Positions 1,895 through 27,733 of a stretch of 64,000 bases of DNA are shown here, one piece after another. The stretch lies in the NCBI RefSeq assembly GCF_005490785.1, contig NZ_CP027295.1:2542001-2606000 (forward strand), written 5' to 3'. The stretch's first letter is position 1. Every line of letters begins with the position of its first letter. The notes under the pieces are model-generated. The model was given only the letters and a program-made list of their open reading frames with translations. It had not been told where the DNA came from and did no database searches. The stretch comes from Brachybacterium sp. SGAir0954 (GTDB taxonomy: Bacteria > Actinomycetota > Actinomycetes > Actinomycetales > Dermabacteraceae). Position numbers and translations under genes: made by a program.

Positions 1895-4800
1895 GGGTGG
1901 CCTCCATGATGGTGTTCCAGACTTCGTTCGAATCGGGGTCGATCCCGGCGGCGAGGGCGTCCTCGCGGATGCCGGTGATCTCGAGGAACGCGCGCGGCGC
2001 GATCTCGGTGAGGCGCGCGAACAGCTCGTCCTCGTCCGCGAGCAGCGAGGCCGCGCGGTCGGAGCCCGTGCGCCGGGCGTGCTCACGGATCGCGGAGACC
2101 ACGAACTCCCGGTGGTCCTCGCGGACCGGGGAGATCTCGAAGGTCGCGGCGTCCGCGGGGTTCAGGTCGTTCTCGTCGAGGTCGAGCACGAAGAGCGTGC
2201 CGCCGCTCATGCCCGCGCCGAGGTTGCGGCCGGTGGGGCCGAGCACCAGGACGACGCCGCCGGTCATGTACTCGGCGCCGTGGTCGCCGATGCCCTCGAC
2301 CACGAGCGTCGCGCCGGAGTTGCGCACACCGAAGCGCTCGCCCGCGGCGCCCGCGAGGAACAGCTTCCCGCTCGTGGCGCCGTAGGCGCAGGTGTTGCCC
2401 GCGATCGCGGCGGAGGTCAGCGAGCCGGTCGTCCCGCGGCCGTGGCCCACGGCGACGATGCCGCCCGAGAGCCCCTTGCCCACGTAGTCGTTCGTGTCGC
2501 CCGTGAGCTCGAGGGTCACGCCCGCCGGGAGGAAGGCGCCGAGGCTCTGGCCGCCGGTGCCGTCGAGGTCGAGCACGATCGCGTCCTCCGCGAGGCCCGC
2601 GCCGCCCGTGCGGCGAGTGACCTCGTGGCCCAGCAGGGTGCCCGTCGTGCGCTGCACGTTGCGGATGGAGCCGGTGATGCGCACGGACTCCTGCTCCCCC
2701 TCGATGACGGGGAGCGCCTGCTCGATCCACGGGTGGTCCGCGGCGAGGTCGAGGTGGTGGTCCTGCCCGCGACGGCGGCGCGGGAAGTCGCCCTCCATGA
2801 TCGTGGGTGCCGCGAGGATCGCCTCGAGGTCGAGCCCGCGGTGCTTGGCGCGGGCGAGCTCGCTGCGGGAGCGGTCGTCCTCGGCGAGGCCCAGCAGGTC
2901 GGTGCGGCCCACCGCCTCGTCGAGGGAGCGCAGCCCCAGCGCCGCGAGGTGCTCGCGCACCTGCTCGGCGATGAACTGGAAGAAGGTCACGACGTGGTCG
3001 GCGTGCCCGGTGTAGCGGGCGCGCAGCTCAGGGTTCTGGGTCGCGACGCCCACGGGGCACGTGTCCAGGTGGCACACGCGCATCATGACGCAGCCGGAGA
3101 CGACGAGCGGGGCGGTCGCGAAGCCGTACTCCTCGGCGCCCAGCAGTGCGGCGATGACGACGTCGCGCCCGGTCTTCATCTGACCGTCGACCTGGACGGT
3201 GATGCGGTCCCGCAGACCGTTCAGGAGCAGGGTCTGCTGGGTCTCGGCGAGGCCCAGCTCCCAGGGCGTGCCCGCGTGCTTGAGCGAGTTCATCGGGCTC
3301 GCGCCGGTGCCGCCGTCGTGCCCCGAGATGAGGACGACATCCGCATGCGCCTTCGAGACGCCGGTCGCGACCGTGCCCACCCCGAAGCGGGAGACGAGCT
3401 TGACGTGGACGCGGGCCGCGGGGTTCGCGGACTTCGCGTCGTGGATCAGCTGGGCGAGGTCCTCGATCGAGTAGATGTCGTGGTGCGGCGGCGGGGAGAT
3501 GAGACCGATCCCGGGGGTCGAGTGACGGGTCCGCGCGATCCATGGGTAGACCTTCTCCGGCGGGAGCTGGCCGCCCTCGCCGGGCTTCGCGCCCTGCGCG
3601 ATCTTGATCTGGATGTCCTTGGCGAAGCTGAGGTACTCGCTCGTCACGCCGAAGCGGCCCGAGGCGATCTGCTTGATCGCGCTGCTGCGCTCGGGATCGT
3701 GCAGGCGCTCGGGGTCCTCGCCGCCCTCACCGCTGTTGGACATGCCGCCGAGGCGGTTCATCGCGATCGCGAGGGTCTCGTGCGCCTCCTGCGAGATCGA
3801 GCCGTAGCTCATCGCACCGGTCATGAAGCGCTTGGTGATCGACTCGACCGGCTCGACCTCCTCGATCGGCACCGGGTTCAGCTGGCCGGTGCGCAGGCGC
3901 AGCAGGCCGCGGATCGTCATGAGCCGCTCGTGCTGGTCGTCCACGGCGTCCGTGTACTTCCGGAACTCGTCGTAGCGGCGGCTGCGGGTCGAGTGCTGGA
4001 GGCGGAAGACGGTCTCCGGGGTGAACAGGTGCGGCTCGCCCTCGCGACGCCACTGGTACTCGCCGCCCACGGGGAGGCGGCGGTGCGCGAGCTGGTCGCC
4101 CTCGACGGGGTACGCGAGCGCGTGGCGCGCCGCGTTCTCCTTCGCGACGACCTCGAGGTCGATGCCGCCGATCCGGGTCGTGGTGCCGGGGAACCAGGTC
4201 TCCGCGAAGTCCTCGGCGAGGCCCACGGCCTCGAAGATCTGCGCGCCGCGGTAGGAGGCGACCGTCGCGATGCCCATCTTCGACATGATCTTCAGGACGC
4301 CCTTGCCGAGCGCGTAGTTGAGGTTCGCGACGGCCTTCTCCGGGGTCACGTCGCCGAGGACGCCGCGGCGCACGAGGTCCTCGACGCTCTCCATCGCGAG
4401 GTACGGGTTCACGGCGCTCGCGCCGTAGCCGATGAGCAGCGCCGCGTGGTGCACCTCGCGCACGTCGCCCGCCTCGACCACGAGCGCGGCGCGGGTGCGG
4501 CGACCGGTGCGCACGAGGTGGTGCTGCACGGCCGAGGTCATGAGCAGCGAGGGGATCGGGGCGAGCAGCGCGTTGGCGTCGCGGTCGGTGAGCACGAGGA
4601 AGGTCGCGCCCGCGTCGATCGCGGCGACGGCCTCCTCGCAGATCTCGTGGAGCCGCTCCTCGAGCGCCCGCGCTCCGCCGGCCACGTGGTACAGCCCCTT
4701 GAGGCGCGCGGCGCGGAAGTCCGCGGTGCCCTCGAGCGTGTGGACGCCGTAGATCGTGGCGAGCTCGTCGTTGTCGATGATCGGGAAGTCGAGCGAGAGC

Positions 4801-18293: not shown

Positions 18294-19154
18294 TCAGCTG
18301 TAGTCGGCCTGCAGGTCCTTCGCGCGCACCCGCAGGTCCTCGACCGACGGGCCCGCGGCGAGAAGCCCGCGGGACACCGAGACCAGCACGTGACCTGCGG
18401 ATTCACCGAAGACGTCGGCGAGCTCCGCGATGCCCGCGCCCTGGGCGCCGAAGCCCGGGGCGAGGAGCGGCACGCTCGGTGCGGCCGCGTCCAGGCCGAG
18501 GCGACGATAGGCGTCCCCCACCGTCGCGCCGACCACGAGCCCGACCGAGCCCCAGACGGATCCGTCGCCGCCGCCGCGCTCCTCGGCGTGTCGCGCCACG
18601 CCGAGCGCGACGCTCGTGCCGTCGGCCGCGATCGCGTGCTGCACGCCGTGCCCCTCGGGGTTCGAGGTCAGCGCGAGCAGGAACACGCCCTTGCCGTGCT
18701 CGAGCGCGAGGTCCACGGCGGGGTCCAGGGACCCGGCACCGAGGAACGGGCTCGCCGTGATGGCATCGGCCTCGAGCGGGGCGCCGGGGCGCAGGTACGC
18801 CTCGGCGTAGGCGCCCATGGTGGAGCCGATGTCCCCGCGCTTGACGTCGAGGATCGTGAGGATGCCGCGCTCCCGGGCACCGGCGAGCAGCTCCTCGAGC
18901 ACCGCCAGACCGCGGGAGCCGTGGCGCTCGTAGAACGCCGACTGCGGCTTGATCGCGGCGACCTGCCCGTCCACGGCGTCGAGCACCGCCCGGGAGAAGG
19001 TGGCCAGCCCGGCCGGGGAGTCCGGCAGCTCCCACTGCGCGAGCAGCCCCGCGTGGGGGTCCACGCCGGCGAGCAGCGGGCCGTGCTCCGCGACGGCGGC
19101 CTGCAGCCGTGCGCCGAAGCTCACCGGCCCGGTCGCCCCGGCCGTGCTGCTCAC
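18294..19154 (-). CDS. pyrF: Orotidine 5'-phosphate decarboxylase (type 2)
   Basis: Last step of UMP synthesis: decarboxylates OMP. The 286-residue protein belongs to the longer actinobacterial/type 2 subfamily, with [14 protein letters not shown] and the catalytic-site segment [21 protein letters not shown] containing the Asp-Lys-Asp residues, and [12 protein letters not shown] for phosphate binding. GTG at 19154 overlaps the carB stop (GTGA). It is the last gene of the pyr operon. pyrD and pyrE are not in this window. Confidence 0.95.
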
Positions 19155-22100
19155 GCCGTCACCGTCCGCGCGGCCACGAGGCGTGCGGTGTGCTCCTGGA
19201 GGCTGAGCACCGAGAACGGCTCCTCCGGGAGCGCCTCGATCGCCTGCACGGCCGCCTGGAACTCCTGCAGCGTGGTGATGATCGGGACGTCCATGCTCGT
19301 CGCCGCCGCGCGGATCGCGTAGCCGTCCGCGCGGGCGTCGGAGCCCGAGGGGGTGTTGAGCACGAGCGCGATCTGCTCGGACTCGATCATCTCGATGACG
19401 CTGTCGCCCTCGCCGGCCTCGGAGGCCTTGCGCAGGACCCGGCACGGGATGCCGGAACGGCGCAGCACACGGCCGGTGCCCGCGGTGGAGAGGATCTCGA
19501 AGCCGAGGGCCGCGAGCCGCGCGACGGGCAGCACCACGCCGCGCTTGTCGCCGTCGGCCACGGAGACGAACACCGCCCCGGAGGTGGGCAGACCCTGGCC
19601 GGAGACCGCCAGCTGCGACTTCGCGAAGGCGAGCGGGAAGGTCGTGTCCAGGCCCATCACCTCGCCGGTCGAGCGCATCTCGGGGCCCAGCAGGGAGTCC
19701 ACCGCGCGGCCCTCGGCGGTGCGGAACCGTTTGAAGGGCAGGACGGCCTCCTTGACCGCGATCGGCGCGTCGTCCGGGAGCGAGGTGCCGTCGCCCTCCG
19801 CGGGCAGCACGCCCGCGGCCCGCAGCTGCGCGACGCTCTCCCCCGCCATGACGCGGGCGGCGGCCTGGGCGAGCTGAACGCCGGTGGCCTTCGAGACGAA
19901 GGGCACCGTGCGGGAGGCGCGCGGGTTCGCCTCGAGGACGAAGAGGATGTCCTGCGCGAGCGCGTACTGCACGTTCAGCAGGCCGCGCACGCCCACGCCG
20001 CGCGCGATCGCGAGGGTCGACTCGCGGATCCGCTCGAGCACGCCGTCGCCGAGGGTCACCGGGGGCAGGGTGCAGGCCGAGTCGCCCGAGTGGATCCCGG
20101 CCTCCTCGATGTGCTCCATGATCCCGCCCATGTAGAGCTCCTCGCCGTCGTACAGGGCGTCGACGTCGATCTCGGTCGCGGTGTCGAGGAAGCGGTCGAT
20201 GAGGATCGGCGCCTCGGCGCGACCGCCCTCGGGGAGGTTGCGGCCCACGTAGTCCGTCAGCTGCGCCTCGTCGTAGACGATCTCCATGCCGCGGCCGCCC
20301 AGCACGTAGCTGGGGCGCACGAGCACGGGGTAGCCCACCTCTCGGGCCACCTCGAGCGCGTCGCCGAGCCCCCAGGCGGTGCCGTAGGGCGGGGCCGGGA
20401 GGGAGGCGTCGGCGAGGACGGCGCCGAAGTGGCCGCGGTCCTCGGCGAGGTCGATCGCCGCGGGGCTCGTGCCGATGATCGGCAGGCCCGCGGCCTCGAG
20501 CCGGCGGGCGAGGGCGAGGGGGGTCTGCCCGCCGAGCTGCACGATGACGCCGGCCACGGGGCCCACGGCCTTCTCCGCCTCGTACACCTCGACGACGTCC
20601 TCGAAGGTGAGGGGCTCGAAGTAGAGGCGGTCGGCGACGTCGTAGTCCGTCGACACGGTCTCGGGGTTGCAGTTGACCATGACGGTCTCGTAGCCGCCGC
20701 CGGGGAGGTCCCGGTCGCCGAGGGCGAGCACCGCGTGGACGCACGAGTAGTCGAACTCGATACCCTGGCCGATCCGGTTCGGGCCCGAGCCGAGGATGAG
20801 CACGGCCGGCCGCTCGCGCGGCTCGATCTCCGTCTCCTGGTCGTAGCTCGAGTAGTGGTACGGCGTGCTCGAGGCGAACTCGGCGGCGCACGTGTCCACG
20901 GTCTTGAAGACGGGGTTGATGCCGAGCGCCTCGCGCACGCCCTTGACGACGTCGCCGCCCTGGCCGCGCAGCTCGCCGATCTGGTCATCGGAGAGGCCGT
21001 GGCGCTTGGCCAGCCGCATGAGCTCCGCGTCGAGCACGGAGGCCGAGCGGATCTCGGCGGCGATCTCCGCGACCAGCAGCATCTGGTCCAGGAACCACGG
21101 GTCGATCGCGGTGGCCTCGTGGACCCGCTCGAGCGTCTCGTCGACGTCCACGACGCCCTCCGCGGCGGACCACAGCACGCGGGCGAGCGCCCCGAGGCGA
21201 CCGTCGGTCGCGATCCGGGAGGCATCGATGAGCTCGGTGACCTCGGCGGGGCTCGGCGGCCGGCCCGCGTAGGAGACCGCGGCGCCCTTGACGTCGAGGG
21301 AGCGCTGCGCCTTGCCGAGCGCCTCGGTGAAGCTGCGGCCCAGGGCCATCGCCTCGCCGACGCTCTTCATGGTCGTGGTGAGCGTCGGGTCCGCCGCCGG
21401 GAACTTCTCGAAGGCGAAGCGGGGCACCTTGACGACGACGTAGTCGAGGGTCGGCTCGAAGCTCGCCGGGGTGGTGCCGGTGATGTCGTTGCGGATCTCG
21501 TCGAGCGTGTAGCCGATCGCGAGGCGCGCGGCGATCTTCGCGATCGGGAAGCCCGTCGCCTTGGAGGCGAGCGCCGAGGAGCGGGAGACGCGGGGGTTCA
21601 TCTCGATGACGACCACGCGCCCCGTCGCGGGGTCCACCGCGAACTGCACGTTGCAGCCGCCCGTGTCGACGCCGACCTCGCGGATGATGCCGATGCCGAG
21701 GTCGCGGAGCTTCTGCAGCTCGACGTCGGTGAGGGTCAGCGCGGGGGCGACGGTCACCGAGTCGCCGGTGTGCACGCCCACGGGGTCGACGTTCTCGATC
21801 GAGCAGATGACCACGCAGTTGTCGGCACGGTCGCGCATGAGCTCGAGCTCGAACTCCTTCCAGCCGAGGATCGACTCCTCCAGGAGCACCTCGGTGGTCG
21901 GCGAGTAGTGCAGGCCGTCGCCGCCGATGCGGCGCAGGTCCGCCTCGTCGTAGGCCATGCCGGAGCCCAGGCCGCCCATGGTGAAGCTCGGGCGCACGAC
22001 CATCGGGTAGCCGAGCTCGTCGGCGGCCTCGAGCAGGTCCTCGATGCTGTGGCAGATCCGGGAGCGGGCAGAGTCCCCGCCCACGCGCTCGACGACGCCC

Positions 22101-22498
22101 TTGAACAGCTGGCGGTCCTCGGCCTTCTGGATCGCGTCGAGGCTCGCGCCGATCATCTCGACGCCGAACTCCTCCAGGGTGCCGTTCTCGGCGAGGGCGA
22201 CGGCGGCGTTGAGCGCCGTCTGCCCGCCGAGGGTCGGCAGGATCGCGTCGGGGCGCTCGGCGGCGATGATCGTCCGGATGACGTCGGGGTCGATCGGCTC
22301 GACGTACGTGGCGTCGGCGATCTCCGGGTCGGTCATGATCGTCGCGGGGTTCGAGTTCACGAGGATCACCCGCAGGCCCTCCTCGCGGAGCACGCGGCAG
22401 GCCTGGGTGCCGGAGTAGTCGAACTCGGCGGCCTGGCCGATGACGATCGGGCCGGAGCCGATGACGAGGACGGACGAGATGTCGGTGCGGCGGGGCAT
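19151..22498 (-). CDS. carB: Carbamoyl phosphate synthase large subunit
   Basis: Makes carbamoyl phosphate from bicarbonate, two ATP and ammonia supplied by CarA; shared by pyrimidine and arginine synthesis. The 1115-residue protein has two ATP-grasp halves (first from [21 protein letters not shown], second from [20 protein letters not shown]), [18 protein letters not shown] and [18 protein letters not shown] in each half, and a C-terminal MGS-like regulatory domain of about 150 residues. Length is slightly above the usual 1070-1100. Its ATG shares one base with the carA stop (TGATG). Confidence 0.97.
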
Positions 22499-23697
22499 CA
22501 GGACTCCTTGCTCTGGTCGCCGGCGCGGCGGGCGCGCACGAGGTCGACGAGGCGGTCGAAGAGGTACGAGGCGTCGTGGGGTCCCGCGGCGGCCTCGGGG
22601 TGGTACTGGACCGAGAAGGCCGGCAGGTCGAGGCAGCGCAGACCCTCGACCACGTCGTCGTTGAGGCCGACGTGGGAGACGACGACCTTCCCGTAGCGGC
22701 CGCCGTCGTGGGGAGCGGTGTGCTCGCCCTCGAGCGGGACGTCCACCGCGAAGCCGTGGTTGTGGGCCGTGATCTCGACGGTGCCCGACTCGCGGTCGAG
22801 CACCGGCTGGTTGATGCCGCGGTGCCCGTACTTGAGCTTGTAGGTCTCGAAGCCGAGGGCGCGGCCCAGCAGCTGGTTGCCGAAGCAGATGCCGAAGAAC
22901 GGCAGCCCGGCGTCGAGCACGCCGCGCAGGAGCTCGACCTGCGCGTCGGCGGTCGCCGGGTCGCCCGGGCCGTTGGAGAAGAAGACGGCGTCCGCGCCGG
23001 TGGAGCGGAGCTCCTCGAGGGTCGTCGTCGCGGGCAGCAGGTGCACGCGCAGCCCGCGCTCGAGCATCGCGCGGGGGGTCGCGCCCTTGATGCCGAGGTC
23101 CACGGCGGCGACCGTGCCGATCGCCTCGCCCTCGGGCTCGAGCAGCAGCGGCTGGGCGATGGTGACCTCGTCGACGAAGCTCGCGCCCTCCATGGAGGGC
23201 TGCTCGCGGACCTGCTCGAGCAGGGCCGCCTCGCCCGCGGCGAGGGCGTCGCCGGAGAAGACGCCGCCGCGCAGGGAGCCGGTCTCGCGCAGCACGCGGG
23301 TGAGCATGCGGGTGTCGATGCCGGCGATGCCGACGACGCCCTGGCTCTCGAGCAGCTCGTCGAGGGTCTGCTCGGAGCGCCAGTTCGAGGCGACGCGGCT
23401 GGCCTCGCGCACGGCGTAGCCGCGCACCCACACCCGGGAGGACTCCATGTCCTGGGCGTTGGCGCCAGTGTTGCCGATGTGCGGAGCGGTCTGCACGACG
23501 ATCTGCCCGGCGTAGGAGGGATCCGTGAGGGTCTCCTGGTAGCCGGTCATGCCGGTCGAGAAGACGACCTCGCCGAGGCGGGAGCCGCGGGCGCCGTAGG
23601 CGCTGCCGCGCAGGGTGGTGCCGTCCTCGAGGATCAGCAGGGCGGGCTCGGTGCGCGAGGCGCCTCGGCGCTCCCGAGCGGGGGTGGGGGCGGTCAT
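22498..23697 (-). CDS. carA: Carbamoyl phosphate synthase small subunit
   Basis: Glutaminase subunit that feeds ammonia to CarB. The 399-residue protein has an N-terminal CPSase domain ([24 protein letters not shown]) and a C-terminal class I amidotransferase with nucleophile Cys in [12 protein letters not shown] and the catalytic pair His-Glu in VQYHPEA. GNQ in place of the GHQ common elsewhere is, as I recall, typical of actinobacteria. ATG at 23697 overlaps the stop of the PH-like membrane protein by four bases. Confidence 0.96.
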
Positions 23698-24188
23698 GGG
23701 TGCTCCTTCCGGGAGAGCAGCAGGTCGTGGTCGGCGCGTGCGCCGAGGCGGAGGCCGGTGTCGAGGTCCTGGTCGCCGAGGCGCCAGCGGATGACGAGGA
23801 GTCCGTCGCCGCCCACGAACTTCCCGGCCATGCCGGGGGCGGAGGCGACGTCGAGGACGGCAGCGGCGGGGATGGTCAGGGACGGGGCTCCCTGACGGAG
23901 GATCCGCCAGGAGCCGCCGTCGCCGCGGCTCACGCGCGCCGTGGAGCGCGCGCCGAGACCGTGGGCGACGACCCGCTCGAGGGGACGGTCGGCGAGGACG
24001 GTGTCGACGTAGATCGCGTCGACGGGCCCCACCTCGGTCTCCTCGCCGAGGTCGGCGAGCTCGCTGCGGCGGTCCGGGGCGGGTAGGCCGGACTGGCGCC
24101 GGCCGCGCAGACGCCAGCCGAGCACCATGAGGCCGAGCGCCGCGAGGAACACCACCGCGAGCACGAGCACGGGCAGAAGGCGGTCCAT
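23694..24188 (-). CDS. PH-like-domain membrane protein of the pyr operon
   Basis: Unknown function. The 164-residue protein has one N-terminal membrane helix (residues 1-27, [23 protein letters not shown]), then a basic stretch RRQSG and a soluble beta-rich cytoplasmic domain (about 50-155) ending in [20 protein letters not shown], which resembles the bacterial PH-like fold. It lies between pyrC (6-base gap) and carA (ATGA overlap). A gene of this type occupies the same place in mycobacteria (the Rv1382 position) and other actinobacteria, so the association is old; it may anchor or regulate the pyrimidine enzymes at the membrane, but nothing in the sequence proves this. Confidence 0.8.
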
Positions 24189-24194
24189 CGCGCC

Positions 24195-25499
24195 TCAGCC
24201 CTCGACGAGGGCGCCGTCGCGCACGGTGACGCGGCCGCGGTGGACGGTGAGGCGGTTGCGGCCCGGCAGCTCCCGGCCCGTGAAGGGGCTGTTCATGCTG
24301 CGGGAGGCGTGCACGGCGGGGTCGACGACGGTCGTGGGGCGCGGGTCCCACACGAGCACGTTCGCGGGGCTGCCGGCCTCGAGGGGGCGGCCCTGGTCCT
24401 CGTCCCGGCCGATCCGCGCGGGGGTCTCGGACATGACGCGGGCGACGTCGCGCCAGCTGAGCGCCTCGCGGTCCACCATCGTGGACTGCACGATGGACAG
24501 CGCGGTCTCGAGGCCGGTCATGCCCATCGCCGCCTGGTCCCACTCGCGGTCCTTGGCGTCCGCGGGGTGCGGGGCGTGGTCGGTCGCGACGATGTCGATC
24601 GTGCCGTCGGCGAGGCCCTCGCGGACCGCCTCGACGTCCGCCTGCGTGCGCAGCGGCGGGTTCACCTTGTAGCGGGCGTCGAAGCCGCGCACGGACTCGT
24701 CGGTCAGCAGCAGGTGGTGCGGCGTGACCTCGGCGGTCACGGCGATGCCGCGCTGCTTGGCCCAGCGGATGATGTCGACGCTGCCCGCGGTGGACAGGTG
24801 GCAGACGTGCAGGCGGGAGCCGACGTGGTGGGCGAGCAGCACGTCGCGGGCGATGACGGACTCCTCGGCGACGGCGGGCCAGCCGGCGAGGCCGAGCTGC
24901 GCGGAGACCTCGCCCTCGTGCATCTGGGCGCCCTCGGTGAGGCGCGGGTCCTGCGCGTGCTGGGCGATGACGCCGTCGAAGGACTTCACGTACTCCAGCG
25001 CGCGGCGCATGAGGACGGGGTCGTGCACGCACTTCCCGTCGTCGCTGAACACGCGCACGCGGGCCCGGGAGCTCGCCATGGCGTCGAGCTCGGCGAGCCG
25101 CTCCCCCGCGAGGCCCACGGTGACGGCGCCGACGGGCCGCACGGTGCACCAGCCGGCGCTCTCGCCCGCGCGGGCGATCTGCTCCACCACGCCCGCCGTG
25201 TCCGCGGTGGGGGTCGTGTTGGCCATCGCGTGGACTGCCGTGTAGCCGCCGCGGGCGGCGGCGCGGGTGCCGGTCTCGACGGTCTCCGCCTCCTCGCCGC
25301 CCGGCTCGCGCAGGTGCGTGTGGAGGTCGACGAGGCCCGGGAGGACCACGCAGCCGTCCACGTCGATCACCTCGGCGCCCGCGGGCGCCTCGAGGTCCGT
25401 GCCGACGGCGGCGATCTCGCCGCCCTCGAGGAGGAGGTCCGCCGCGGTCTCGCCGTAGAGCAGGCCCCCGCGCAGGAGGAGGGTGGGTGCGGTGGTCAT
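24195..25499 (-). CDS. pyrC: Dihydroorotase
   Basis: Third pyrimidine step: cyclises carbamoyl aspartate to dihydroorotate. The 434-residue amidohydrolase is of the large class I type, with metal ligands in [11 protein letters not shown], later histidines in [10 protein letters not shown] and HHLLLTD, and the catalytic Asp of [16 protein letters not shown] near the middle is also conserved in the class. Overlaps pyrB by four bases. In some bacteria class I PyrC assembles with PyrB, and the adjacency here would allow it. Confidence 0.96.
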
Positions 25500-26452
25500 C
25501 GGGCGTCCTCCCGGGAGTCGGTGGCGAGCAGGTGGTAGAGCACGGCCATCCGGACGAACACGCCGGAGGAGACCTGCTCGACGATGACGCTGCGGGGGCC
25601 GTCGGCCACGTCACCGGCGATCTCGAAGCCGCGGTTCATGGGGCCGGGGTGCATGACGCGCGTGTGCTCGGGCAGCGCCGCGGCGCGGGCGGTGGAGAGG
25701 CCGTAGCGGCGCGAGTACTCCCCCGCGGTCGGGAAGAACCCGCCGCCGACCATCCGCTCGCGCTGGACGCGGAGCATCATGACGGCGTCCGGGCCCTGCC
25801 CGAGCGCTTCGTCGAGGTCGTAGGTGATCTCGCACGGCCAGGCGCTCGCGCCGACGGGGACGAGGGCCGGCGGGGCGACGAGCGTGACGCGTGCGCCGAG
25901 CAGGGTCAGCAGGAGGACGTTGGAGCGGGCGACGCGCGAGTGCAGCACGTCGCCGACGATGACGACGTGGGCGCCGTCGAGCCCGGCCTCCGGCTCCCCC
26001 GGCCGCAGGTGGCGGCGCAGGGTGAAGGTGTCGAGCAGGGCCTGCGTGGGGTGCTCGTGCGCGCCGTCGCCGGCGTTGACGATCGGCTGGTCGATCCAGC
26101 CCGCGTGGGCCAGCAGGTGCGCGGCGCCCGAGGAGCCGGAGCGGACGACGACGGCGTCCGCCCCCATCGCCTGCAGGGTGAGGGCCGTGTCCTTGAGCGA
26201 CTCGCCCTTGGAGACGCTCGAGCCCTTCGCGGAGAAGTTGATGACGTCGGCGGAGAGGCGCTTGGCGGCCGCCTCGAAGCTGATGCGGGTGCGGGTGGAG
26301 TCCTCGAAGAAGAGGTTCACGACCGTGGTGCCCACGAGAGTGGGCAGCTTGCGGATCGAGCGGGACTGGGTCTGCGCCATGTGCTCGGCGGTCGCGAGCA
26401 CGGCGATAGCCTCCTCGCGGGAGAGGTCCGCGATCGAGATCATGTGCTTCAT
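25496..26452 (-). CDS. pyrB: Aspartate carbamoyltransferase catalytic subunit
   Basis: Condenses carbamoyl phosphate with aspartate. The 318-residue protein has the carbamoyl-phosphate site [13 protein letters not shown], the SKGESLKDT loop, [13 protein letters not shown], and the aspartate-binding [11 protein letters not shown]. No pyrI regulatory subunit is present, as expected for Gram-positives. The start ATGAAGCAC at 26452 overlaps the pyrR stop (ATGA). A second ATG lies three codons later. Confidence 0.97.
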
Positions 26453-27039
26453 CGGGTCTCCTCCTCGCCGGCGGGGCGGGCGAGGACGACCGCGTCCTCG
26501 CCGTCGGTCTCGGCGAGCTCGACGTGGACGCGCTCCCCGCGCGAGGTGGGGAGGTTCTTGCCGACGTGGTCCGCGCGGATCGGGAGCTCGCGGTGGCCAC
26601 GGTCCACGAGCACCGCGAGGCGCACCGCGGAGGGGCGGCCGATCGCGCCGAGGGCGTCGAGGGCGGCGCGCACGGTGCGGCCGGAGAAGAGGACGTCGTC
26701 GACGAGGACGACGGTGCGGCCGTCGATGCCGCCGCGCGGGATGCGGGTGGGGCTCGGGGCCCGGGTGGGATGCTGCCGCAGGTCGTCGCGGTACATCGTC
26801 ACGTCGAGGGAGCCGGCGAGGTCCTCGACGGGGCGGTCGATGCCCTCGGCGGCGAGGATCTGCGCGGCGAGCCGCTCGGCGAGGGGCACGCCGCGGTGCG
26901 GGATGCCCAGCAGGACGAGGTCGTCGGCACCGTGGCCGCTCTCGAGGATCTCGTGCGCGATGCGCACGAGCGCACGTCGGATCTCCTCGGGCCCCAGGAT
27001 CCTGACGCGGTCCGGGACGGGGGTCGTGCTCTCGGTCAT
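26449..27039 (-). CDS. pyrR: Bifunctional pyr operon regulator / uracil phosphoribosyltransferase
   Basis: RNA-binding protein that senses UMP/UTP and PRPP and controls the pyr operon through the leader hairpin just upstream; often has weak UPRTase activity. The 196-residue protein carries the PRPP-binding motif [18 protein letters not shown] and [15 protein letters not shown] chose the ATG at 27039 because GGAAGGGAG lies 4-5 bases upstream; a GTG at 27054 would put the PyrR hairpin inside the coding region. It is the first gene of a seven-gene operon that ends at pyrF. Confidence 0.96.
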
Positions 27040-27045
27040 GTCTCT

Positions 27046-27077
27046 CCCTTCCACGCCTCACGGGACGTGTCGTTAAA
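27046..27077 (-). promoter_or_regulatory. PyrR-binding hairpin over the pyrR ribosome site
   Basis: On the transcribed strand the leader reads TTTAAC, then the hairpin ACGTCC-CGTGA-GGCGT, then GGAAGG. This fits the anti-antiterminator loop known from Bacillus pyr leaders (UUUAA, GUCC, NGNGAGG, GNAAGG). A 5-bp stem (A-U, C-G, G-C, U-G, C-G) closes a CCGUGA hexaloop with the conserved GA. The hairpin ends at the Shine-Dalgarno sequence and no terminator follows, so repression of translation, as reported for Mycobacterium smegmatis, is the likely mechanism. Confidence 0.8.
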
Positions 27078-27086
27078 GGGTGGATC

Positions 27087-27100
27087 GGTCCGTGCGGACC
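27087..27100 (-). repeat. Short inverted repeat in the pyrR leader
   Basis: GGTCCG-TG-CGGACC is a perfect 6-bp inverted repeat between the candidate promoter and the PyrR hairpin. It would form a separate hairpin in the 5' leader and could insulate the PyrR site from upstream RNA. Confidence 0.4.
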
Positions 27101-27107
27101 GGGGCCG

Positions 27108-27113
27108 AGTCTA
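27108..27113 (-). promoter_or_regulatory. Candidate -10 box of the pyr operon
   Basis: TAGACT matches TANNNT and would start an mRNA near 27101, about 60 bases ahead of pyrR and in time to include the PyrR hairpin. No recognisable -35. Confidence 0.4.
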
Positions 27114-27193
27114 CGCGAGACCCGGCCGGGGCCACGCCGGCGCCCATCCCGTGGGACGGCGCCGGCGGGCCGTGGCGCGGAGCCGGGGCGGGC

Positions 27194-27733
27194 TCAGCCC
27201 AGCAGGCCCCGCACGTCGGCCAGACGCTGCAGGAGCCCATTGACGAAGCGGGGCGAGTCGTCTGTGGAGAGCGCCTCCGCGATCTTCGTGTACTCGCCGA
27301 TCACGGGGCCGCGGTCCGACGCCTCGGTGTCGAAGAGCACCTCCGCGGCGCCGAGGCGCAGGATCGCGCGGTCCACGGCGGGCATGCGGTGCAGCGGCCA
27401 GTCGCGCGAGTGGGTCTCGAGCTGGTCGTCGACCTCCTCGGCGTGCTCCGCGTACCCCTCGACGAGCTCGCGGGCCCGCTCCGGGACCGGGGTCTGCGCG
27501 GCCGTCACCCGGAGACGCTGCGCGAGCACCTCGAGGACGGGCAGGCGGCGGGCGTCGGCCTCGAAGAGCACGTCGAGCGCACGGATGCGCTGACGGGTCA
27601 GGGTGTGCAGCCGGTCCGTGCGGGCCGGGAGGGTGCGCTCGAACTCGATCTCCTCCCCGTCCCGTGCGGGCAGGGGCAGACCCGGCCCCTTGCGCGGGGC
27701 CGAGGGGGTGGAGGACGCCGAGGAATCGGTCAC
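27194..27733 (-). CDS. nusB: Transcription antitermination protein NusB
   Basis: Binds boxA RNA with NusE in the rRNA antitermination complex. The 179-residue protein has a variable Pro/Ser-rich lead of about 35 residues and then the all-helical core: [34 protein letters not shown] and [27 protein letters not shown], all diagnostic. It overlaps the efp stop by four bases. The efp-nusB pair is conserved in actinobacteria. Confidence 0.95.

Follow-up and report, generated by a model that had tools for sequence, protein, structure and literature searches.

The stretch of Brachybacterium sp. SGAir0954 DNA analysed here (64,000 nucleotides, hereafter the window) carries on its minus strand a pyrR gene preceded by a short hairpin, and the question that this locus raises is whether that hairpin is an operator through which PyrR controls the translation of the whole pyr operon. 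The original prediction placed such an element at 27046-27077; its core was correctly located, the lower stem beginning 3 bases further upstream, and the predicted PyrR-binding hairpin extends from 27080 to 27046 (minus strand, CCCUUUAACGACACGUCCCGUGAGGCGUGGAAGGG), just upstream of pyrR. A lower stem of six pairs, the last of which is U-G (27080-27075 with 27051-27046), is followed by the internal loop AACGA, unpaired and present on the 5′ side only (27074-27070), by an upper stem of six pairs, CACGUC/GGCGUG (27069-27064 with 27057-27052), and by the hexaloop CCGUGA (27063-27058), which caps the upper stem. Two stems, a one-sided internal loop and a hexaloop of the form NNGNGA are all present, as are the conserved blocks that had been named beforehand: UUUAA, GUCC, the hexaloop itself, GAGG and GGAAGG. 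The isolated hairpin folds at -12.7 kcal/mol (z -1.49), with a centroid structure that deviates from the canonical fold in its upper part, and the folding energy of this single sequence is weak evidence.

The first point to settle is whether a motif of this size could occur by chance. The core motif, GWCCNGNGAGGC, is not specific on its own: it matches 84 times in this genome of 3.41 Mb, where the reversed pattern matches 25 times, and a chance origin is not excluded by the motif alone. At gathering thresholds, Rfam gave no match in the whole window. Under relaxed thresholds, the best family in 26800-27200 was RF00515 (PyrR), which reached 24.3 bits over positions 4-37 of its 115-position model and whose single match in the genome at E <= 10 was the pyrR leader site (E 0.59). 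The gathering score of 54 bits, which is the Rfam cut-off for membership of RF00515, was not reached. Weak matches to RF00515 prove little by themselves, as they also appeared in 9 of 14 genomes of a control search, E. coli and M. jannaschii included (2 above the cut-off). The decisive result comes from a covariance model (R2) for which 27 actinobacterial leaders, none of them from Brachybacterium, were used, and which scored the pyrR leader site at 46.7 bits (E 1.3e-11), while the runner-up in the genome obtained 17.1 bits (E 0.14); this model of the whole element rules out a chance origin. A second model (R1), which includes the window sequence, so that its score for this site is biased by construction, gave 59.4 bits here and no second site above 15.7 in the genome. 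The original prediction had named a covariance score below threshold as an observation that would speak against it. With the Rfam model this is literally the case, but with R2 the site outscores everything else in the genome by a wide margin.

The two stems can also be judged by how their pairs change between species. From an initial set of 60 sequences (A1), which MAFFT misaligned at short internal loops, 25 rows were removed as misaligned or redundant by the author's choice, leaving 35 rows (A2); removal of the 8 Brachybacterium rows, the window among them, left the 27 rows (A3) from which R2 was built. A2 and A3 are both MAFFT alignments with hand-picked rows. A further alignment of 80 distinct rows was fitted to the covariance model and so leans towards it: 89.5% of its cells are paired, against 53.6 to 60.2% when the partners are slid by 1-3 columns, and it holds 76 double-change cells, against 30.8 in shuffles. 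In its upper stem, pair 18-33 is CG, AU, GC or UA and pair 19-32 is CG, GC or UA, each in 80 of 80 rows. Two other measures on these 80 rows are weaker or less decisive: 8 pairs show a double change, against 6.2 in shuffles (27 of 500 shuffles were as high), and the count of pair types was equalled by 26 of 500. The unfitted A2 rows behave similarly, with 90.3% of cells paired against 53.3 to 60.1% when slid, and 27 double-change cells against 10.6. Without Brachybacterium, 91.4% of cells are paired and 9 double-change cells are found against 3.6 (4 of 500 shuffles as high), with a covariation score of 0.108 that is close to the 0.103 obtained for partners slid by -1. Judged from these alignments, both stems covary, in a signal that persists but shrinks once the genus is left out.

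If the element serves PyrR, it should accompany the pyrR gene. In a protein scan from which the best 80 named loci of 560 were taken, the named loci closest by PyrR were two from Brachybacterium (L009 and L010). The gene was found in 36 of 38 related genomes (this one included), and loci were taken from 30; the two genomes with no match are a same-genus genome that is 74% complete and G026, which is complete and belongs to the same order. The element precedes pyrR in all 110 loci from L009 to L118, this one included: 109 match a regular expression derived from the sequences themselves, and in L026 the covariance model recognises it. The L026 element (3945-3985, 39 bits) has a loop one base shorter than the pattern allows and is outside all counts over 109 loci. 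When R1 was run on 82 of 140 pyrR-bearing loci plus the window, exactly one match was obtained in each of the 83 sources, 32 of which had helped to build the model and match by construction.

On a wider scale, 296 genomes sampled evenly across the phylum were searched (element at E <= 0.001, PyrR at E <= 1e-20): the element was found in 139 genomes, PyrR in 276 and both in 138, the remaining genome having its element at a contig end and no PyrR. Positive genomes hold one site each, except for one assembly (7% contamination) with two, and pyrR lay directly downstream in all 30 model-match loci taken from the 139 genomes (this one included). Within the same order and class, element and PyrR occur together in 26 of 26 genomes, again counting this one. 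The other half of the PyrR-bearing genomes (138 of 276) gave no element match at E <= 0.001, and all of them fall outside the class; they may control pyr genes differently, or their element may have diverged beyond the reach of the model.

The position of the element relative to the start of pyrR indicates at which level it would act. The Shine-Dalgarno region, GGAAGGGA (27045..27052, minus strand), coincides for the most part with the lower stem's 3′ strand, in which the purines AAGGG sit, in line with the proposal that GGAAGG is both conserved flank and ribosome site. Only the six bases AGAGAC separate the hairpin from the pyrR ATG at 27039. Such a placement bears on the reading, already mentioned in the original prediction as a way in which it could fail, that the true pyrR start lies upstream and the hairpin is coding sequence: a GTG at 27054 opens a frame that runs uninterrupted into pyrR. 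Across 109 loci, however, the element falls into each of the three possible frames with respect to pyrR (39, 38 and 32 loci), and only 40 of the loci have a pyrR frame without a stop inside the element; for these reasons it is assigned to the leader. On the frame counts we reject a coding reading from GTG 27054, to which we give next to no credence.

The same placement bears on the level of control. In transcription attenuation as known from Bacillus, PyrR would favour a terminator, and the RNA core found here is indeed similar to the Bacillus-type binding loop of RF00515. Nevertheless, the match to that family is limited to the portion of the model given above, there are just 6 bases between the element and the start codon and so no space for a leader terminator, and no terminator-like site was found in 26900-27400, in agreement with the earlier statement that none lies between hairpin and gene. 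Attenuation is, consequently, an extremely improbable account of this leader.

A hairpin that covers a ribosome site could, in principle, tune pyrR translation by sequestration of the Shine-Dalgarno sequence without any protein, and folding predictions are relevant to this point. In a transcript that begins at 27082, AAGGG is predicted to be mostly paired unaided, and the canonical lower stem has a probability >0.9, although a start at this position also removes the UCC of an alternative pairing. That alternative, UCCAC/GUGGA, is predicted to beat the canonical hairpin by 0.9 to 2.4 kcal/mol in transcripts that run from the predicted start into the gene, and in these longer transcripts the canonical lower stem falls to a probability of 0.04 to 0.22; in a transcript ended at the ATG, it is 0.78-0.89. 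In the models, then, the hairpin without PyrR competes with other predicted folds. A role of UCCAC/GUGGA as a conserved antirepressor fails, with 44.6% of cells paired against a shuffled mean of 42.9, and we treat it as a folding competitor of one strain rather than as a designed antirepressor because it is not conserved. As for sequestration without PyrR, it would have no need of the unpaired residues that never vary among the 35 rows of A2, namely both A of UUUAA and the loop C, G, G and A; in addition, pyrR lies just downstream in 30 of 30 loci checked. We therefore regard it as very unlikely, and retain PyrR as the probable ligand of the hairpin.

A variation on the lower stem was observed elsewhere. 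In L043, L015, L028 and similar loci, an outer clamp, GAC/GUC, lengthens this stem past one mismatch over the entire AAGGAGGU ribosome site. The clamp is absent from the 8 Brachybacterium rows of A2.

The protein expected to bind the hairpin is encoded immediately downstream. The pyrR gene (26449..27039, minus strand) has an ATG start and codes for 196 aa that score above the NCBIfam equivalog cut-offs for both NF003547 (266.6 against 230) and NF003549 (222.2 against 138) and match solved PyrR structures, including PDB 1w30 (E 1.5e-51). The residues aligned to R19, H140, R141 and R146 of B. subtilis PyrR are the same in all 140 loci (the gene studied here being counted twice). The residue aligned to T18 is variable; it is V here and T in 110 of the 140 loci. 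The idea that this is a change specific to Brachybacterium was rejected, T being found in 20 of 27 Brachybacterium loci (again with this one counted twice) and 90 of the 113 others.

Six genes follow pyrR on the same strand with tight junctions, as had been anticipated. The start of pyrB (25496..26452) overlaps the pyrR stop in an ATGA, and that of pyrC (24195..25499) overlaps the pyrB stop in the same way. A gene for a bacterial PH-like protein (Pfam bPH_11, with a hydrophobic N-terminus; 23694..24188) begins 6 nt after pyrC and shares an ATGA with carA (22498..23697); carA and carB (19151..22498) meet in a TGATG, and carB and pyrF (18294..19154) in a GTGA, a second GTG candidate for pyrF lying at 19124. 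The operon order is pyrR-pyrB-pyrC-PH-carA-carB-pyrF, and all junctions are overlaps of 1 or 4 bases or the 6-base gap.

With these elements in hand, we consider it very probable that PyrR-UMP represses translation of the pyr operon, with the hairpin as its operator. The operon would be transcribed from a promoter with a -10-like box 28 bases before the hairpin. When pyrimidines are plentiful, PyrR with UMP (or UTP) would keep the hairpin shut, and the closed hairpin would trap the AAGGG of the Shine-Dalgarno sequence in its lower stem and block pyrR translation. The six genes from pyrB to pyrF would be repressed too, through their overlapping or close start and stop codons and because less use is made of the mRNA. 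When pyrimidines become scarce, PyrR would release the hairpin and the operon would be translated. As an alternative for the distal genes, PyrR may block translation as proposed, with the distal drop owed mostly to Rho-dependent termination or to decay of untranslated mRNA and not to lost coupling. Such an effect follows from general knowledge of polarity, whereas the tight gene junctions would suffice for coupling, and we see it as a sizeable possibility, though not the favoured one. Both effects can act together, so that this explanation overlaps with the preferred one.

The region upstream of the operator deserves separate attention. The putative -10 box, TAGACT (27108..27113, minus strand), fits the loose pattern TANNNT and has no -35 consensus; a consensus scan gave no promoter. 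A TANNNT box occurs within 59 bases before the element in 25 of 25 Brachybacterium leaders and in 79 of 80 from other genera. Six bases after the box here, near the predicted transcript start, lies a second hairpin, CGGUCC-GCAC-GGACCG (27086..27101, minus strand), which corresponds to the GGTCCG/CGGACC hairpin of the original prediction, with arms at 27101-27096 and 27091-27086, and is possibly a genus-specific accessory element.

For the counts that follow, L016 was left out, its leader being identical to that of L110, and identical upstream stretches were removed in other genera, which left 80. A hairpin 4-7 bases after the box and 5-8 before the PyrR hairpin is found in 20 of 25 Brachybacterium leaders, against 2.34 expected from shuffles, an expectation that is optimistic, as the positional limits were chosen with the stem and folding-energy counts given below already in view; the leaders of related species, moreover, are not independent. 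In other genera, a hairpin in the same position (4-7 bases after the TANNNT box) is found in 1 of 79 leaders, with 0.29 expected. Several results weaken the case for the second hairpin. Upstream stems of at least 4 pairs are present in 21 of 25 Brachybacterium leaders (8.5 expected) and 30 of 80 others (24.2 expected). By folding energy, the second hairpin stands out at p <= 0.05 in 6 of 26 Brachybacterium leaders and 5 of the 83 others, with mean z of -1.05 and -0.02, respectively; a stem as long as the one in this leader, with 6 base pairs, was reached by 393 of 5000 shuffles. The arms differ between leaders: GCUC/GAGC in 13, GCUCG/CGAGC in 2, GAUCG/CGAUC in 2, ACGG/CCGU in 1, CGGUCC/GGACCG in the one studied here and 9 pairs in another. 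The hairpin is missing in five (L090, L103, L105, L108 and L109), including the genome with the PyrR closest to this one (L090). Because the limits were chosen after inspection and the species are related, we treat the second hairpin as a lead.

Regarding its function, Brachybacterium might have added a second RNA module, a hairpin close to the first base of the pyr mRNA, at a short, almost constant spacing from the -10 box and ahead of the PyrR hairpin, whose arms have changed in a compensatory way and which would guard PyrR-blocked mRNA from decay from its 5′ end, keeping repression reversible. We put this forward as a rather doubtful suggestion, in which 5′-end protection is a guess. Two other roles were set aside. 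Prevention of mispairing of the PyrR hairpin is unsupported, as the low lower-stem probabilities of the longer transcripts were obtained with the second hairpin present, and a start-site switch like that of E. coli pyrC would not fit a hairpin that falls short of the ribosome site.

Further upstream, between nusB and the pyrR promoter, a strong G+C hairpin without a U run was observed at 27131-27170 (minus strand), and for the 51-base stretch 27120-27170 the folding energy is -38.8 kcal/mol (z -2.56). It is possibly the terminator of an efp-nusB unit.

In the literature, a survey of RNA motifs in 255 genomes (PMC3766115, BMC Genomics 2013) includes RF00515 among its motifs and Corynebacteriaceae and Mycobacteriaceae among its genomes; its passage on regulated nucleotide-metabolism genes presents them as an exception in Firmicutes and Actinobacteria, and PyrR is unnamed in that passage. 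A sentence in the discussion of PMC10672894 cites Fields and Switzer 2007. Among the matches listed by our searches, whose coverage leaves most subscription journals outside, neither Brachybacterium pyrR nor the second hairpin appeared in titles or abstracts, and the second hairpin is the one feature that is possibly new. The present analysis would extend translational PyrR control to Brachybacterium; the site studied here escapes the Rfam model at the curated cut-off, and a short actinobacterial covariance model could annotate the PyrR sites of such leaders. If the second hairpin is functional, it would provide an easy way to ask whether structure at the 5′ end shields an mRNA that is silenced at translation.

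How does this leader compare with known systems? It presents these leader features of the translational-repression type: the stems and loops, the overlap with the first ribosome site and no attenuator. With the Bacillus-type attenuators of RF00515 it shares the core of the binding loop (CCUUU.AA, GUCC, hexaloop, GAGGC and AAGG); the remainder of that model is unmatched, and here the ribosome site lies within the element. Translational repression by PyrR was reportedly described in Mycobacterium smegmatis by Fields and Switzer in 2007 (J Bacteriol 189:6236), and is said to have been proposed for probably other bacteria. That case was already published, so the occurrence of the element in a high-GC actinobacterium is not the novelty that the original prediction suggested; the element is real and was correctly read, and it is an ordinary case of the PyrR switch known from mycobacteria. 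Like this leader, that of M. smegmatis reportedly precedes a pyr operon led by pyrR, carries a PyrR-binding hairpin at the operon's first ribosome site and has neither antiterminator nor terminator. The two differ in genus and in the extra hairpin that usually precedes the operator in Brachybacterium leaders (20 of 25).
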